A DNA stretch of 43,636 nucleotides from contig JAJRBZ010000014.1 in the NCBI GenBank assembly GCA_028679185.1, forward strand, positions 1 to 43,636, read 5' to 3'. Each line of letters opens with the position of its first letter. Position 1 is the first letter of the stretch. Positions 36,841-43,484 of this stretch are shown in pieces. This DNA is from Methanoregula sp. GTDB lineage: Archaea; Halobacteriota; Methanomicrobia; Methanomicrobiales; Methanospirillaceae. The notes below the pieces were generated by a model that saw nothing but the letters and a program-made list of their open reading frames with translations, did not search any database and was not told the origin of the DNA. The position numbers and the translations under genes were made by a program.

Positions 36841-37391
36841 GGTTCGCCTCTTAAAAAATGTGATTCTGTACTCTCATCAGTTATCCTTCGCATGCAATAA
36901 AGATGTGGAGATGGCTGCAACAAAGAGCAGTTTTTTTTTTCCCTTACGCAATCGATGGTGGCTGAATATGGTTTGATATCAAGTACCGGTGTTCCATCAA
37001 GCGCATCAAGTCCCCGTAAAATCAGCCTTTTTCCTTCGCGACGGATAAGGTCAACAATTCCAATTCCGATCGGATTCGGGCGGTCTGGAGAGCGTGTTAC
37101 AAATACTCCATGTTCAATCCCGGTATGAGGGGAAGTCGCTTTCAGGGTTGCACGATCAGAGAGGTCGAGCCAGTACAGGACAATCAGGTGCGGATGGTGC
37201 TCCACATCCTGCAATGCATCGGTAAATTCCGGGAGTATTTCCAGCGTAGATTCCACGTCAGATAACCTGCCCTGCCGCGGGGCATCACCATGTTCACGAA
37301 AAGGTGAGTGTATTATTCCGACAGGTTTCAATTCAAAAGGCCCCAGGACCGCTATCATAGATTCATCCCTTTCCATATCTTTTTTAGACAT
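36837..37391 (-). CDS. trmO: TrmO-like tRNA methyltransferase (t6A37 N6-methylation)
   Basis: A protein of up to 184 residues with the TsaA/TrmO beta-barrel: PVGIIHSPFREHGDAPRQ, the HPHLIVLYW strand, TRSPDRPNPIGI and GLDALDGTPVLDIKPY, all hallmark motifs. It methylates the N6 of threonylcarbamoyl-adenosine 37 in tRNA, using SAM. The start is one of three Met codons (37391, 37376, 37358); 37358 has an AAAGGGA-like site, while 37391 agrees best with the TATA box at 37425-37434. The frame open to 37436 runs into the promoter and is not used. Confidence 0.9.
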   Translation of the reverse strand: MSKKDMERDESMIAVLGPFELKPVGIIHSPFREHGDAPRQGRLSDVESTLEILPEFTDALQDVEHHPHLIVLYWLDLSDRATLKATSPHTGIEHGVFVTRSPDRPNPIGIGIVDLIRREGKRLILRGLDALDGTPVLDIKPYSATIDCVREKKNCSLLQPSPHLYCMRRITDESTESHFLRGEP

Positions 37392-37424
37392 AAGAGACAG
37401 TGGAAAAAGAAAGGACAACAATAT

Positions 37425-37434
37425 GTTTATATTC
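37425..37434. promoter_or_regulatory. Shared TATA box between trmO and PEBP gene
   Basis: gtttatattc reads as a TATA-like box on both strands. It lies about 29 bases before the PEBP ATG at 37458 (leaderless) and about 38 bases before ATG 37391 of trmO. It is the only clear candidate in this 66-base divergent gap. Confidence 0.45.
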
Positions 37435-37457
37435 ACATGCCTGGTTTTTTAATAATA

Positions 37458-37910
37458 ATGGACCGACTTGTTGTCTCACTGGATTTTCTTGAATTTCCAC
37501 CCACCCATACATGCGATGGAGAAAACCTTTCGCCCCGCCTTACCCTCAAGGGGTTGAAAGCATCATCAGTTGCTGTTATGATCTTCAACCCGTTCGAAAA
37601 ATCCTGTTGTTCTTTCACTCCGTGGATCATCTGGAATATCCCTCCTGTACAGCAGATACCTCCCGGAATCCCGCCCGGAGGCAGGGTCACTTCACCCATC
37701 CCGGCTGTGCAGGGCATAACGGACTATGGGACTATCGGCTATAAGGGTCCGTGTCCCCCGCATGGCCAGATGATACGGTATCAGTTCAGGGTGTATGGAC
37801 TGGATGCGATGCTTGATCTCCCCGCCGGATCCAACAAACATGAGCTTATAACAGCAATGAGAGGACATGTGATCCAGTTTGGCGATACGGCCGCAATATG
37901 TTCACGATAA
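37458..37910 (+). CDS. PEBP family protein (YbhB/YbcL-like), first of a tandem pair
   Basis: A 150-residue protein of the phosphatidylethanolamine-binding/Raf-kinase-inhibitor-like family. THTCDGENLSPRL (about 16-28), PWIIWNIPP, the GTIGYKGPCPP ligand-pocket motif and YQFRVYGLDA are present. In the usual core D-P-D-A-P motif position this copy has FNPFEKSCCSF, so the pocket is altered. Its cellular role in archaea is unknown. I start it at ATG 37458; an ATG at 37437 would put the codon next to the TATA box. A close relative follows 89 bases later. Confidence 0.87.
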   Translation: MDRLVVSLDFLEFPPTHTCDGENLSPRLTLKGLKASSVAVMIFNPFEKSCCSFTPWIIWNIPPVQQIPPGIPPGGRVTSPIPAVQGITDYGTIGYKGPCPPHGQMIRYQFRVYGLDAMLDLPAGSNKHELITAMRGHVIQFGDTAAICSR

Positions 37911-37999: not shown

Positions 38000-38461
38000 A
38001 TGGAGCAGCTTAACGTAAAAATTTCTGCAAAAAATCTACCCAGTGACTATACATGTGACGGAAAAGATATATCTCCGCAGATCTCTATCGGCGATGTTAA
38101 CCCGGCTCTCTCAAAATCCCTTGCCATTATCGTCAATGATCCCGATGCACCTGGCGGAGGGGGTTTTGTTCATTGGATTGCGTGGAATATGGAGCTTGTG
38201 AGATTGATTCCCGATAATATTCCAAAAACACCAGAAGTTACGTTTCCGATCAGGGCAGTGCAGGGAAAAAACAGCTTTGGCAGGATCGGATACAACGGTC
38301 CCTGCCCACCGCGGGGAAAGCCCCACAGGTATTTCTTTAAGATCTATGGTCTGGACTCTGAGATTTCCCTGCCAGCAGGAGCCACAAAGGATCAACTTGT
38401 CCGGACAATGGAAGGACATGTCGTCCAGTATGGCGATACTTATGTCACGTATGGGCGGTGA
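38000..38461 (+). CDS. PEBP family protein (YbhB/YbcL-like), second of a tandem pair
   Basis: A 153-residue member of the same family as its upstream neighbour, with the canonical motifs complete: YTCDGKDISPQI, NDPDAPGGGGFVHWIAWNM (about 47-65) and RIGYNGPCPPRGKPHRYFF. Unlike the first copy it keeps the D-P-D-A-P pocket motif. The two are diverged paralogues. Ligand and role are unknown; bacterial YbhB binds no proven substrate. A GGAGGT ribosome site precedes it. Confidence 0.9.
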   Translation: MEQLNVKISAKNLPSDYTCDGKDISPQISIGDVNPALSKSLAIIVNDPDAPGGGGFVHWIAWNMELVRLIPDNIPKTPEVTFPIRAVQGKNSFGRIGYNGPCPPRGKPHRYFFKIYGLDSEISLPAGATKDQLVRTMEGHVVQYGDTYVTYGR

Positions 38462-38825: not shown

Positions 38826-40016
38826 ATGAATCCCGCAAGCAACCGCCATCGGTCACTGGATTCCGGAAAGGAATCATCAATCCGATCATATATCAGTAAG
38901 CAGGAAGCTCTTTTCTCGCCTCTCGCCTCGATAAGTGCTGATGCAGTACGGAGGCACAACAGAAAATCTGAAGATATCCGTACACCATACTCCCGGGATA
39001 CCGACCGAATCATCCACACAAGAGCATACACGAGGTATATCGACAAGACCCAGGTCTTTTCCCTGGTAGATAACGATCACATCACCCACCGGGTCATTCA
39101 TGTTCAGCTGGTTTCCAAGATCGCAAGAACGATAGGGCGCTGCCTCCGGTTAAATGAGGACCTTATAGAGGCAATTGCACTTGGTCATGACATAGGACAT
39201 ATCCCGTACGGGCATTTTGGAGAAACATGCTTATCAGAACTCTGTGAACAGTACGGTATTGGCAAGTTTTTCCACAATGTCCAGAGCGTACAATTTCTCG
39301 ATCGGATAGAAGACTGTGACCTCACCATGCAGGTGCTCGATGGCATCCTCTCCCACAACGGTGATGCTGATGATGTGAAAATCTTCCCTGAACCCTGCCT
39401 GACATGGCTGTCATTCGATAAAAAAGTGCAGGATAACGCGGATGGAAAACGCACAAAGGCCCCAATGACGCTGGAAGGATGTGTCGTCAAGTTTGCCGAT
39501 ACTATTGCATATATCGGCAGGGATTTGCAGGACGCACGTGAGGTGGGTCTAATCGCAGATTCGACCATGTTCCCTCAGAAGTGCAGGGAACTGCTCGGTG
39601 AATCCAACCGGGAAATCATCAATACCTTAATTTACGATCTCCTTGAAAACAGTGATACTGAAGAAAAGGGTTATATCTCGTACAGTCCTGATGTCGAATC
39701 AGCTCTAATAGATCTTCGCACCTTTTCCCGGATCCATATTTATGACAATGAAAAACTCACTTCAGAACGGGAGAAGGTGAGGCAGATGTACGCAACTCTG
39801 TTTATCAAATGTCTTGACGATCTGGAAAAAGATTCAAGGAATGAAAAAATCTTTACGGATTTTATCGACACCAGCTGGATCAACCGCGGCTATCTTCAGT
39901 CAGCTACGTACGCCGAGCTTGCCAGGGACTTTATTGCTGGCATGACCGACCGGTACTTTGCAAAACGATATGAAGAATGTGTAATTCCCCGCAGGGTTGA
40001 GGGAAAATTCTGTTAA
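38826..40016 (+). CDS. dgt: dGTPase-like HD-domain nucleotide triphosphohydrolase
   Basis: A 396-residue HD-superfamily enzyme. The opening SRDTDRIIHTRAYTRYIDKTQVF (read in parts) and NDHITHRVIHVQLVSKIAR (about 78-96) followed by EAIALGHDIGHIPYGHFGE (about 114-132) contain the metal-binding His/Asp residues of dGTP triphosphohydrolases; FHNVQSVQFL and LDGILSHNGD continue the pattern. It would cut dNTPs to deoxynucleoside and triphosphate, controlling dNTP pools. Such enzymes can also serve against viruses in bacteria; that is only a possibility here. It stands alone and ends 16 bases before a convergent cysteine-rich gene. Confidence 0.9.
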   Translation: MNPASNRHRSLDSGKESSIRSYISKQEALFSPLASISADAVRRHNRKSEDIRTPYSRDTDRIIHTRAYTRYIDKTQVFSLVDNDHITHRVIHVQLVSKIARTIGRCLRLNEDLIEAIALGHDIGHIPYGHFGETCLSELCEQYGIGKFFHNVQSVQFLDRIEDCDLTMQVLDGILSHNGDADDVKIFPEPCLTWLSFDKKVQDNADGKRTKAPMTLEGCVVKFADTIAYIGRDLQDAREVGLIADSTMFPQKCRELLGESNREIINTLIYDLLENSDTEEKGYISYSPDVESALIDLRTFSRIHIYDNEKLTSEREKVRQMYATLFIKCLDDLEKDSRNEKIFTDFIDTSWINRGYLQSATYAELARDFIAGMTDRYFAKRYEECVIPRRVEGKFC

Positions 40017-40032: not shown

Positions 40033-40224
40033 TTACTCGTACTTTCCCTTGGGCTCAGACCAGCCGGTAAAACCACAGTATATGCACCCAATACCATCAC
40101 AATGATGGCAATGTCTTTTAGGTGCGGTGACCAAAACCACTCCGGTCTTGTTACAGTACAGGCACCCATGCCCTTCACAGTGACAACAGGTCGCAGGTTC
40201 GTAGATTTTTTGCCTTTCTGTCAT
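40033..40224 (-). CDS. Cysteine-rich mini-protein with two DnaJ-like zinc-finger repeats
   Basis: A 63-residue protein that has two near copies of one unit: CCHCEGHGCLYCNKTG (about 13-28) and CHHCDGIGCIYCGFTG (about 39-54). Each has CxxCxGxGCxYC, close to the CxxCxGxG zinc repeats of DnaJ. It probably binds one or two zinc ions and may bind a protein or RNA. A TATA-like GGTATAATTA (minus strand, 40241-40250) lies about 22 bases before the ATG, so the message may be leaderless. It resembles no named family that I know. Confidence 0.75.
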   Translation of the reverse strand: MTERQKIYEPATCCHCEGHGCLYCNKTGVVLVTAPKRHCHHCDGIGCIYCGFTGWSEPKGKYE

Positions 40225-40284: not shown

Positions 40285-42423
40285 TCATCCTTCCTCATTC
40301 AGGTATCCCATGAGTGCGTCAAGCATCTCACCTGCAGACTGGTACCGCTGAGCTGGATCTTTTTCGAGACATTTCAGGATGATTTTTTCCACAATCAATG
40401 CATCAGAATTATACTTTGACGGGGGGATAGGTTGCTCTCTCACAATAGCATTTCCTACTTCAACAATACTCTCGCCGCCAAATGGAACCGAACCGGTAAC
40501 CAGTTCGTAAAAAACCACGCCCAGCTGATAGATATCGGTCCGTTCATCAGTCCTCCCGAAAACCGAAGGGGAAACCTGTTCGGGAGCTGCATATGAAAGC
40601 GAGAACCCGGCAATACTGGACTTTTTTATTTCATTGGCTAGAACCTTGCTCATCCCCCAGTCCGTGATCTTGGGAACGAAATCCTTATTGAGCAGGATAT
40701 TGTGGGGTTTGATATCCCGGTGGATGAACCCCTGTGAATGAGCATATTTCAGACCGTCGGCAATACCTCTGATAAGGTGTACTGCTTTCCAGACAGGGAT
40801 TGGTTTCTCGATTGTTTCCAGGGAATCAGGCACGTACTCCATCTCAACATAAGGAACCGGCAGGATATTGACTGCAGTTACTTTTACAATATTGGGATGA
40901 CGAAGCGTTTCCCATGCTGCAATCTCATTTAAAAAGGATTTCCCCGTCATTTCATCAAAACTAATCGGGATCTTGACGGCAACCATCATGTCATCTGATT
41001 TTCGGCGGGCAGAGAAAACCCACGCGATACCGCCTCTTCCGATATATTTAATCTCGGCATATTTACTCTCCAGCTCATTGGGGAAGATGTTCATTTGTTC
41101 TGCAGATGAGGCATAAGGCCTCGATAGTACCGGAACTGTTGTATCTGTTGCAGGGGTAGTTGCCGCGGGGGTGAGACGGTTGTTAGATGTTCTGGATGTC
41201 TTTTGCTGGGGAATTGCTTCGGGAACTGTTGCAGTAGATGAAATCCTGATATTCGAGGTCCTGGACATTTTTTGCTGGCTCGCTGCTGCTACACCTGCAG
41301 ATATTTCCTGCTTACTCTCTTTTTGCTTGAGCTGCCGGAAAATTATCAAAACTACAACACCAGAAATCAGCAGCACAATGAGTTCGATCATAAGGAAACT
41401 CGTGGCTTGTCCATTCACCGGGCTTTCAGGGGTTGTCAAAGAGATTGTTTGTGTTGATGCAGGAACGGGTGCAGTAGGGTATGTCTCCTGGGAGATACCC
41501 GGGAGTGTCGGGAAAATCATTGGTTGTAAAGCGGGCACCTCTTCTTTTTGCGGAAAGACTTCGTAGTAGTATTGTTTTGGGTCCATTAAGGGAAATGCAT
41601 CAATAATATTCTGATTGGATTCAAGTATCGCTTTCGGGTTTGCACCGATCATTATGCCATATGGTGTATCACCGATGCCGTCACCATTTTTGTCCTTCCC
41701 GCGGTAATCACTCCAGAAATTTCCCATGGGGCTCTGTCTGAAAAGACCCAGATAAGTGTACGTATACGTGAAGGGAGAATACCAGACTGAAGTCGCACTC
41801 TTGGAGATGACATTCAGGGGATTACGAAAATTATTTCGGTATATCCTGTTGGAGAGGGAATACTCGTTAAGCTCTATCCCGATAGAATTTTTTGTGAATA
41901 TATTCTCTTCAATCACATTATTATTTGAGGCTTCAAAGGAAATGCCGGCCTGACTGTTGTTTGTAATAGTATTGCCGACAATCGTATTCTGCATTGCTGA
42001 CACCAGAAGGATACCCCTTGCATTGTTCAGGAAGGCATTGCCTTTTATGAGATTTCCGCTGGACTTGATATGGATGCCATTAAGAAATTCAATATTCCGG
42101 ATAGTGAAACCTTCAACTCTGCATCCATCGGCAAGAATTTCGATAGTGTTCCCCTTGTTCTCCGGTTCAAGTATTGGTGCACCACCCCCATTGTCAACAC
42201 CGACAAGATCAATCTTTTTATCAATAAGAAGATTTTCCAGATACGTACCACTATTCACACGGATGGTATCCCCAGGTAAAGAGTGGTTTATTGCCGCCTG
42301 GATGCTGGTAAAATCTGCATTTGATGAGGCAACGGTATATTCAGCAGCAGCTGCAGGTATAAAACAAATAGTAGTCAGGATTATTAGGCAGCAGATGATA
42401 CGGTTTATCTTGATCATAGGCAT
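40285..42423 (-). CDS. Receptor-like Ser/Thr protein kinase with extracellular NosD-type beta-helix
   Basis: A 712-residue membrane protein. Residues 1-27 form a signal peptide (ICCLIILTTICFIPAAAA). Residues 28-285 are a right-handed parallel beta-helix of the NosD/CASH type (repeats such as GNTITNNSQAGISFEASNNN) with NFWSDYRGKDKNGDGIGDTPYGI closing it. A Pro/Thr linker leads to one membrane helix (343-362). Residues 455-710 are a Hanks-type kinase: GRGGIAWVF loop (462-470), Lys484, Glu500, HRDIKPHN (568-575), DWG (588-590), APE (613-615), DIYQLG and Arg693. All catalytic residues are present; the DFG Phe is Trp. A duplicated segment, QQK-SRTSN-R (383-393, 406-416), lies inside the cell next to the membrane and could be a phosphorylation site. 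FHA-HTH gene lies upstream. A TATA-like box at about 42455-42466 suggests its own promoter. Confidence 0.92.
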   Translation of the reverse strand: MPMIKINRIICCLIILTTICFIPAAAAEYTVASSNADFTSIQAAINHSLPGDTIRVNSGTYLENLLIDKKIDLVGVDNGGGAPILEPENKGNTIEILADGCRVEGFTIRNIEFLNGIHIKSSGNLIKGNAFLNNARGILLVSAMQNTIVGNTITNNSQAGISFEASNNNVIEENIFTKNSIGIELNEYSLSNRIYRNNFRNPLNVISKSATSVWYSPFTYTYTYLGLFRQSPMGNFWSDYRGKDKNGDGIGDTPYGIMIGANPKAILESNQNIIDAFPLMDPKQYYYEVFPQKEEVPALQPMIFPTLPGISQETYPTAPVPASTQTISLTTPESPVNGQATSFLMIELIVLLISGVVVLIIFRQLKQKESKQEISAGVAAASQQKMSRTSNIRISSTATVPEAIPQQKTSRTSNNRLTPAATTPATDTTVPVLSRPYASSAEQMNIFPNELESKYAEIKYIGRGGIAWVFSARRKSDDMMVAVKIPISFDEMTGKSFLNEIAAWETLRHPNIVKVTAVNILPVPYVEMEYVPDSLETIEKPIPVWKAVHLIRGIADGLKYAHSQGFIHRDIKPHNILLNKDFVPKITDWGMSKVLANEIKKSSIAGFSLSYAAPEQVSPSVFGRTDERTDIYQLGVVFYELVTGSVPFGGESIVEVGNAIVREQPIPPSKYNSDALIVEKIILKCLEKDPAQRYQSAGEMLDALMGYLNEEG

Positions 42424-42454
42424 TATGGTATATTTTTTTTGATGAATTGATGGT

Positions 42455-42466
42455 AAGGTATTTTAA
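42455..42466 (-). promoter_or_regulatory. TATA-like box before the kinase gene
   Basis: TTAAAATACC on the minus strand is about 35-40 bases before the kinase ATG (42423). No Shine-Dalgarno is visible. The kinase may therefore be transcribed from here as well as from the FHA-HTH promoter. Confidence 0.4.
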
Positions 42467-42497
42467 CTCTCATCAGTTCGGATTACAGTCTGTTCAT

Positions 42498-43283
42498 TCA
42501 TTCGTTACCCTGCGGGATGATTATAAGAAGTTTAACGCCATGTAATCCTTTTGAGAACTCGATAAGATCTCCATCATGAATTAGTACACGCGAATTTTTT
42601 CCAAGTTGTTTGTTGTTAAGCTTGGTACCTCCCGTGCTCCCACAATCTTCAATCTGCCAACCATCTTTGGTATGAAGGAACCTTCCATGGGGCTTTGATA
42701 CTCTGGTTACCGCAGTGTAGCCATCTGAAAGGACAACATCATCGGGAGAGAACGCAGTCTGGTTCTCAGGATCGATCCTGCCGATGCGGACTTGATCGTG
42801 TTTCAGCATGAACACCTTCCCATCGTCTGGTCCACCAAGCACGATGGCTGTGGGTATATTTCCCAGCACTTCCTTGGAAAGAGTGTTTTTTACTTCCTCG
42901 AGACGGCGGGAGATTTCGCTCCCCACTATCTGCACCCGGGTATTGGAAAAAAGCCCCAGGTTCCTTATGATGGCTTCAAGACCACCGGGAACAATCGAAT
43001 ATTCCCAGACCGGGTGGATGCCCTTGGAGGTGGGAGCACCCAGACCAGCCTCTTTTTTGATTACCCCGACACTCAGGAGCTTGTCAAGATGCTTTTTTGT
43101 ATTTTCATAGCTGGTCTCGATTTCCTTGGAGATGGAACGGGCGTCCCGGGGCTTTTTTTCGAGAAATTTTAATATCCTGAGCCGCGCGCTGCTTGAAAGT
43201 ACATCGAGATACTCCGAAAGTTCTTCCAGTGAGTCTGAATCTTCATGAACAATAATTGTCGGGGATTTGTCCGCGGGATTCAT
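42498..43283 (-). CDS. FHA-domain winged-helix transcription regulator
   Basis: A 261-residue soluble protein. Residues about 22-82 form an ArsR-like winged helix (YLDVLSSSARLRILKFL, then ISKEIETSYENTKKHLDKL). A helical linker (about 98-140) precedes an FHA domain (about 143-257): strand TAIVLGGPDDGKVFML, RIGR (166-169), VSKPHG (195-200), the GST-x-GT loop (215-220) and FLHTKDGWQIEDC. FHA domains bind phosphothreonine; here the usual Asn of the loop is Gly (GSTGGT), while Arg169, Ser196 and His199 remain. It should bind DNA and a phosphorylated partner. GGAGG lies about 10 bases before the ATG. The downstream kinase is the obvious candidate partner. Confidence 0.9.
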   Translation of the reverse strand: MNPADKSPTIIVHEDSDSLEELSEYLDVLSSSARLRILKFLEKKPRDARSISKEIETSYENTKKHLDKLLSVGVIKKEAGLGAPTSKGIHPVWEYSIVPGGLEAIIRNLGLFSNTRVQIVGSEISRRLEEVKNTLSKEVLGNIPTAIVLGGPDDGKVFMLKHDQVRIGRIDPENQTAFSPDDVVLSDGYTAVTRVSKPHGRFLHTKDGWQIEDCGSTGGTKLNNKQLGKNSRVLIHDGDLIEFSKGLHGVKLLIIIPQGNE

Positions 43284-43364: not shown

Positions 43365-43484
43365 TCTCCCTGCAGAAGTACCCTTTAAGTTCATGAGGGT
43401 AACCGATTGGTTCAATACTTCAACCATCATTATATTGGGAATTTATTAGCATCCGCCATTATTGTATATATAAGGTGATACACG

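Follow-up and report, generated by a model that had tools for sequence, protein, structure and literature searches.

The window analysed here, the entire 43,636-nucleotide contig JAJRBZ010000014.1 (assembly GCA_028679185.1, Methanoregula sp.), comes from a 97%-complete genome whose closest named relatives are Methanoregula. On its minus strand it encodes a predicted transcriptional regulator that joins a winged helix-turn-helix (wHTH) to an FHA domain and, after an interval of 74 bp, a transmembrane receptor kinase of the Hanks type. The regulator and the kinase form a genuine, dedicated pair that is found across the order Methanomicrobiales. The best explanation overall, to which we give a probability of about 0.7, is that they are a cognate membrane-to-DNA signalling pair, in which a phosphorylated threonine of the regulator (Thr9) would act as the switch and the regulator would bind a conserved operator. 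The analysis newly points to Thr9 as the probable phosphorylation site, together with a candidate operator and a candidate regulon made up of surface proteins; it also adds genes for a PP2C-type phosphatase in some of the operons.

Of 232 Methanomicrobiales genomes, 155 encode a homologue of the regulator, and these cover 33 of the order's 40 genera. We inspected the DNA around 81 of these homologues (loci labelled L0xx), three of which end before the kinase. Among the 78 loci that are not cut by contig ends, the kinase adjoins the regulator in 77, in all sampled families; the remaining locus is L105, in which a PP2C gene comes after the regulator. The two genes are co-directional in 75 loci (in three of these the kinase reading frame is split or displaced, and the other 72 are intact) and convergent in two, both of which hold Methanoregula paralogs (L066 and L071). 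At the level of genomes, the regulator and a strong Pkinase match occur together in 151 of the 232, one without the other in 3 and 14, and neither in 64 (Fisher p 3e-39, computed ignoring phylogeny and genome completeness). The association is far beyond chance. The source genome encodes a sole FHA protein, the regulator, and a sole above-cutoff Pkinase, the adjoining kinase, so the choice of partner is nearly forced. Among 393 genomes of the phylum, full-length wHTH-FHA proteins are confined to Methanomicrobiales, and elsewhere the HTH part alone matches. One contig labelled as a Thermoplasmata archaeon (L159, DQIQ01000084.1) encodes an 88%-identical regulator; it is probably mis-binned Methanoregula.

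A sequence-only reading of this DNA had proposed that a secreted NosD-type beta-helix, one membrane helix and a complete Hanks-type kinase are joined in one protein and dedicated to a neighbouring wHTH-FHA regulator. Both open reading frames, their coordinates and their domains were confirmed, and the predicted pairing is borne out decisively by the order-wide loci and genomes. The kinase comprises, in order, a signal peptide, the beta-helix, one transmembrane helix, a linker rich in Thr, Ser and Pro, and a PknB-like kinase domain. A hydropathy scan gave two hydrophobic segments, at residues ~9-27 (signal peptide) and ~343-361 (transmembrane helix). Pfam matches cover NosD at residues 101-242 (E 7e-25) and Pkinase at residues 455-695 (E 9e-42; PF00069 at 143.7 bits, cut-off 31.7). 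The features expected of a Hanks-type kinase are all present (VAIK lysine, alpha-C glutamate, HRD aspartate and asparagine, DxG aspartate), and the catalytic residues K484, E500, D570, N575 and D588 (of a DWG motif) are invariant in 78 of 78 relatives. Thus, the kinase is complete, as had been predicted. The closest solved structures to its catalytic domain are those of PknB. Membership in the PASTA-containing PknB/Stk1 subfamily was ruled out (NF033483, 209.8 bits against a required 450), as the ectodomain is of NosD type. Also ruled out was the copper-maturation role of NosD (TIGR04247, 115 bits against 300), with which only the beta-helix fold is in common.

AlphaFold predicts the core of the ectodomain as a confident right-handed beta-helix, with a predicted local distance difference test (pLDDT) score per block that is mostly >90. 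Among solved structures, its nearest folds belong mainly to beta-helix enzymes that act on polysaccharides, with low sequence identity, and it ends in a loop, DKNGDGIGD, that looks calcium-binding. Whereas the catalytic core and the regulator are constant, the N-terminal part of the kinase varies by lineage. In Methanoregula the sensor is a beta-helix with one transmembrane helix. Other lineages encode a beta-helix with several transmembrane helices, a PEGA domain with several transmembrane helices, a short ectodomain between two transmembrane helices, or a multi-transmembrane module. The earlier suggestion that a glycan or metabolite is the signal is no more than a guess from the fold, and in relatives the beta-helix is exchanged for PEGA, short or multi-transmembrane modules.

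In the regulator, an HTH_5/ArsR match spans residues 32-77 (E 4e-6, above the Pfam cut-off) and an FHA match residues 165-243 (E 3e-10; PF00498 at 41 bits, cut-off 20.7). The AlphaFold model (pLDDT 81.8) consists of the wHTH, helices and the FHA domain. The winged helix matches ArsR-like structures (2oqg by Foldseek, 2p4w by phmmer) and contains a nearly invariant segment, TSYENTKKHL. It is ArsR-like in fold only; metal sensing of the ArsR/SmtB kind was ruled out, given a wHTH free of cysteine and an NF033788 score of 24.5 bits against a cut-off of 55. Alignment of the regulators shows that G168, R169, H199, S216 and N223 of the FHA domain are invariant and that position 196 is Ser or Thr. Three residues of the phosphothreonine site (Arg169, Ser/Thr196 and His199) are retained, in support of the sequence-only reading, but the canonical Asn is replaced (see below). 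The best Foldseek matches of the FHA domain are PknB-bound GarA, OdhI, phospho-OdhI, EmbR, Rad53, and the FHA domain of DgcB with its own phosphorylated N-terminal peptide. Profile searches identified no HisKA, HATPase or REC domain in either protein, and the proposed distinction from histidine-kinase chains stands.

Genes for a PP2C-type phosphatase are part of the operon in nine of the 81 loci. In six family-f6 loci (L089-L094) the phosphatase gene precedes the regulator, in L070 and L075 it comes after the kinase, and in L105 it comes after the regulator, with a second FHA-kinase pair encoded ~3 kb further. These genes were called by motif, with confirmation by Pfam for L089 (PF13672, 48 bits). 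That a writer, a reader and an eraser are grouped in this way is independent support for a system that runs on reversible Thr/Ser phosphorylation.

Candidate operator and regulon

A conserved inverted repeat, (T/G)(G/T)AACC-N4-GGTT(A/C), precedes the regulator gene of Methanoregula. The exact form AACCN4GGTT occurs in 23 of 33 Methanoregula-type upstream regions, compared with 0.2 in shuffled sequences. Further copies are spaced by 21 bp: mean matches at -21, 0 and +21 bp are 5.55, 7.7 and 5.45 of 8, against a background of 1.91. The motif also precedes the regulator genes of Methanolinea UBA277, Methanoculleus FWC-SCC1 and L105, and the promoters of the paralogs L066 and L071 have a pair of operator-like sites with a spacing of 20 bp. 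The array of the window stops ~15 nt before a TATA-like element, and such a position upstream of it suggests activation as the sign of regulation.

Genome-wide scans for the operator were pattern searches, with the reversed pattern as control. Single AACCN4GGTT sites proved too unspecific as markers of targets (50 matches versus 17 for the reversed pattern in the source genome) and were set aside. Tandem sites gave 97 matches versus 6 in 39 Methanoregula genomes, and 46 versus 1 across the order when at most one mismatch was permitted. Two near-complete Methanoregula genomes that lack the regulator have zero tandem matches. Of 28 genes beside the Methanoregula tandem sites, 23 encode an N-terminal hydrophobic segment, compared with 31 of 140 other open reading frames, a background of naive calls that includes spurious frames. 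The neighbours include a surface protein with PKD, CARDB and Ig-like domains, a secreted beta-propeller, a CAP-domain protein and a DUF4349 lipoprotein and, in the source genome, a type IV pilin-like protein. The source-genome sites outside the operon (L301-L303) have two mismatches, and their status as operators is tentative. Judged from these neighbours, the candidate regulon in Methanoregula likely consists of secreted and surface proteins, a theme that fits the envelope-facing sensors.

The quality of the background in the hydrophobic-segment comparison is one of several points that weigh against this assignment. The candidate operator is tied to the regulator by position only, and in families f4, f5 and f6 (e.g., L072, L086, L089) most regulator genes have no recognisable copy in front of them, although the recognition helix is conserved. 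In addition, 20 near-complete genomes without the regulator hold 17 tandem matches (3 for the reversed pattern, at most two mismatches). This amounts to ~0.85 matches per genome, versus ~3 in near-complete Methanoregula with the regulator. Because regulator-less genomes still hold these matches, the reversed-pattern control understates the background, and part of the tandem matches is background. Three order-wide matches (L336, L337 and L348) were discarded as operators, being within a coding gene that resembles a DHH-type pyrophosphatase (identified by eye). Another coding match, L354, was also discarded.

The positional nature of the link, the regulators of several genera that have no recognisable site and the matches retained by regulator-less genomes could all be accommodated if AACC-N4-GGTT were the site of a different transcription factor, in charge of the operon as well as the surface genes, with the targets of the pair itself located elsewhere. 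We regard this as unlikely, given the sites upstream of regulators in several genera and of the paralogs L066 and L071, the nearly invariant recognition helix, and the absence of tandem matches from the two near-complete Methanoregula genomes without the regulator.

A candidate phosphothreonine switch

The N-terminus of the regulator is variable, and its residues 1-14 are predicted to be disordered (AlphaFold pLDDT <50). The exception is position 9, which is Thr in 80 of 80 regulators and Ser in none, and which precedes the invariant LSEYL by 13 ungapped residues. Its context is mostly T-[IVL]-[IV]-[VLI] followed by acidic residues, with V, L or I usual at +3. FHA domains favour phosphothreonine. 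Thr9 is placed, as in the OdhI/GarA type of protein, as a conserved phosphorylatable Thr in an N-terminal segment ahead of an FHA domain, and it is likely the phospho-acceptor that this domain reads. The kinase very probably phosphorylates its DNA-binding partner.

From these computed features we infer the following route. An outward-facing sensor that can be swapped between lineages (here the NosD-type beta-helix) would relay the condition of the cell envelope through the single transmembrane helix and activate the cytoplasmic PknB-like kinase domain. The kinase would dock and phosphorylate the wHTH-FHA regulator, most likely on Thr9. Phospho-Thr9 would be bound by an FHA domain, either within its own subunit or in a partner subunit, in a switch like that of OdhI and GarA. 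This binding would change the dimeric or oligomeric state of the regulator and hence its binding to the tandem, 21-bp-spaced AACC-N4-GGTT candidate operators. These sites lie immediately before the TATA element of the regulator's operon and, in Methanoregula, also before genes for secreted and surface proteins.

Some findings speak against this route. AlphaFold, which models the unphosphorylated protein, leaves the Thr9 peptide undocked and disordered. The canonical Asn of FHA domains (STNGT) is Gly218 in 80 of 81 sequences, so the affinity or specificity for phosphothreonine may differ. Lastly, a PP2C_2 phosphatase was sought in the source genome and none was found.

The FHA domain could instead read the kinase. 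According to PMC8546545, FHA substrates of PknG dock on autophosphorylation sites of that kinase, and the linker of the Methanoregula kinases is rich in Thr and Ser, with T428 conserved in 84%. If a Thr of the juxtamembrane linker were autophosphorylated and bound by the FHA domain, the regulator would be held at the membrane or released from it, and Thr9 would be secondary. We find this quite unlikely, as the linker overall is poorly conserved compared with Thr9 (80 of 80), and such docking can coexist with a switch at Thr9. It is very unlikely that the FHA domain is a phospho-independent module for dimerisation or partner binding, with the kinase acting on other envelope targets and the two genes merely co-regulated neighbours: the Gly at the canonical Asn position would permit this, and such interactions are known for GarA (from the title of Nott 2009, as cited in PMC8546545), but the phosphothreonine-contacting Arg, Ser/Thr and His are retained, the genome has one kinase and one FHA protein linked order-wide, Thr9 is invariant, and some operons include a PP2C.

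The cognate signalling pair may be representative of a wider design. The chances seem about even that most Methanomicrobiales possess a Ser/Thr writer-reader(-eraser) system for transcription, in which a swappable receptor kinase, a wHTH-FHA regulator switched by its own phosphothreonine, sometimes a PP2C, and cooperative 21-bp operators would together control the surface proteome.

Locus features and neighbouring genes

Coordinates of the predicted features are collected in Table 1. Next after the kinase comes a 63-aa open reading frame, present in 32 of the 33 loci that belong to Methanoregula or its sister genus (the window and L032-L063). The encoded protein has two zinc-ribbon-like motifs, CxxCxGxGC(x)YC, and a conserved tail, GCIYCGFTGW...PKGKYD. 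It matched no family in a Pfam search and is possibly a third member of the operon.

Table 1. Predicted features of the regulator-kinase locus (positions in the window)
Feature	Position	Strand	Evidence
Candidate operator 1, TGAACC-AATC-GGTTAC, inverted repeat 131-116 nt before regulator start	43399..43414	-	motif conservation, periodicity
Candidate operator 2, degenerate, TGAACT-TAAA-GGGTAC, exactly 21 bp from operator 1	43378..43393	-	tandem search, periodicity
TATA-like element, ATATAAA	43356..43362	-	conserved in most Methanoregula loci
Regulator gene, 261 aa: ArsR-like winged helix, helical linker, FHA	42498..43283	-	open reading frame, Pfam, AlphaFold, homologues
Thr9 codon, proposed phospho-acceptor (SP-T9-IIV-HED)	43257..43259	-	alignment, AlphaFold disorder
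Winged-helix DNA-binding domain HTH_5, residues 32-77	43053..43190	-	Pfam, alignment, Foldseek 2oqg, phmmer 2p4w
FHA domain, residues 165-243	42555..42791	-	Pfam, alignment, Foldseek
Receptor kinase gene, 712 aa	40285..42423	-	open reading frame, Pfam
Predicted signal peptide, residues ~1-26	42346..42423	-	hydropathy scan
NosD-type right-handed beta-helix ectodomain, Pfam span residues 101-242	41698..42123	-	Pfam, AlphaFold, fold search
Transmembrane helix, residues ~343-361	41341..41397	-	hydropathy scan
Hanks-type Ser/Thr kinase domain, catalytically complete	40339..41061	-	Pfam, alignment, structure matches
Double CxxCxGxGC zinc-ribbon-like open reading frame, 63 aa, just 3' of kinase	40033..40224	-	open reading frame, conservation in relatives

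Convergent with the kinase is a gene for an HD-domain, dGTPase-like protein (HD and HD_assoc; 38826-40016, plus strand), and a gene of ~395 aa occupies the same place in most Methanoregula loci. Two neighbouring genes on the plus strand encode phosphatidylethanolamine-binding proteins (PBP; 37308-37910 and 38000-38461). Many Methanoregula loci also encode, just upstream of the regulator and in the same direction, a secreted protein of ~311 aa (L033:4673-5608 and equivalents), for which no clear family was found. A Methanoculleus-type locus includes a gene for a secreted SIMPL/DUF541 protein downstream of the kinase (L072:8909-9646).

Comparison with known systems

Archaeal two-component regulators such as FilI/FilR and LtrK/LtrR also carry a signal to transcription by way of a wHTH or HTH output, but with His-Asp chemistry. 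The output of Bdellovibrio DgcB is a diguanylate cyclase rather than a DNA-binding domain. A structure of its FHA domain (6hc1) includes the protein's N-terminal peptide in phosphorylated form, which resembles the arrangement proposed for Thr9. Archaeal response regulators with a DNA-binding domain are described as rare (PMC5847659). An order-wide, modular kinase/FHA pair would be another answer to the question of how archaea transfer an outside signal to transcription.

GarA and OdhI, substrates of PknG and PknB, are small FHA proteins that are phosphorylated on an N-terminal Thr (PMC8546545), and their FHA fold is nearest to that of the methanogen regulator. Unlike it, they control metabolic enzymes, lack a DNA-binding domain and have an ETTS motif in place of T-[IVL]-[IV]-[VLI]. 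Membership of the regulator in the OdhI family was rejected (24 bits against 200).

The sequence-only reading knew of no characterised archaeal example, a statement that does not hold. In Sulfolobus, the kinase ST1565 modifies the FHA protein ST0829, which binds promoter DNA, and phosphorylation inhibits this binding (PMC7226565; PMC5300886 gives the two names reversed). ArnA and ArnB, with ArnC and ArnD, are another archaeal kinase/FHA system (PMC6509490, PMC5300886). Both resemble the methanogen pair in that a Hanks-type kinase modifies an FHA protein that affects transcription. They differ in belonging to a separate family, described from Thermoprotei (PMC6509490), that targets archaellum genes, and an operon of a wHTH-FHA regulator and a receptor kinase with swapped ectodomains is absent from the accessible parts of their descriptions. 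In the same source, FHA proteins are absent from most archaeal genomes analysed, and the two that had been studied are both of one Thermoprotei family (PMC6509490). A search of the open PMC subset for NosD together with serine/threonine kinases in methanogens returned zero papers.

The closest parallel is embR-pknH of Mycobacterium tuberculosis (Rv1267c-Rv1266c), where the regulator gene lies upstream of a Ser/Thr kinase gene and envelope genes are proposed as targets; phosphorylation of EmbR in vivo is disputed (PMC9239209). The same layout, a regulator upstream of and co-directional with a transmembrane Ser/Thr kinase, was found in 75 of the 78 uncut methanogen loci. Both regulators combine a winged DNA-binding domain at the N-terminus with an FHA domain at the C-terminus, and EmbR structures are among the fold matches of the methanogen protein. 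EmbR, however, has an OmpR/SARP-type domain and a BTAD domain. Pfam identified neither a BTAD nor an OmpR-type domain in the methanogen regulator, which has the ArsR-like HTH_5 instead, and membership in the EmbR/SARP family was thus ruled out. The methanogen pair also differs in being archaeal, with an invariant N-terminal Thr and swappable sensors. Our best reading is that it would work like PknH-EmbR, as an analogue whose regulator is not a homologue of EmbR.

If this is correct, the pair represents a euryarchaeal pathway from phosphothreonine to DNA that has a predicted operator and regulon and follows a logic like that of two-component systems. The system lends itself to direct tests: a single kinase and a single regulator go with one predicted phospho-site, one predicted operator and few predicted targets. 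If the PknH-EmbR layout was reached by convergence, with an unrelated DNA-binding domain, this would point to more than one origin of the circuit design.

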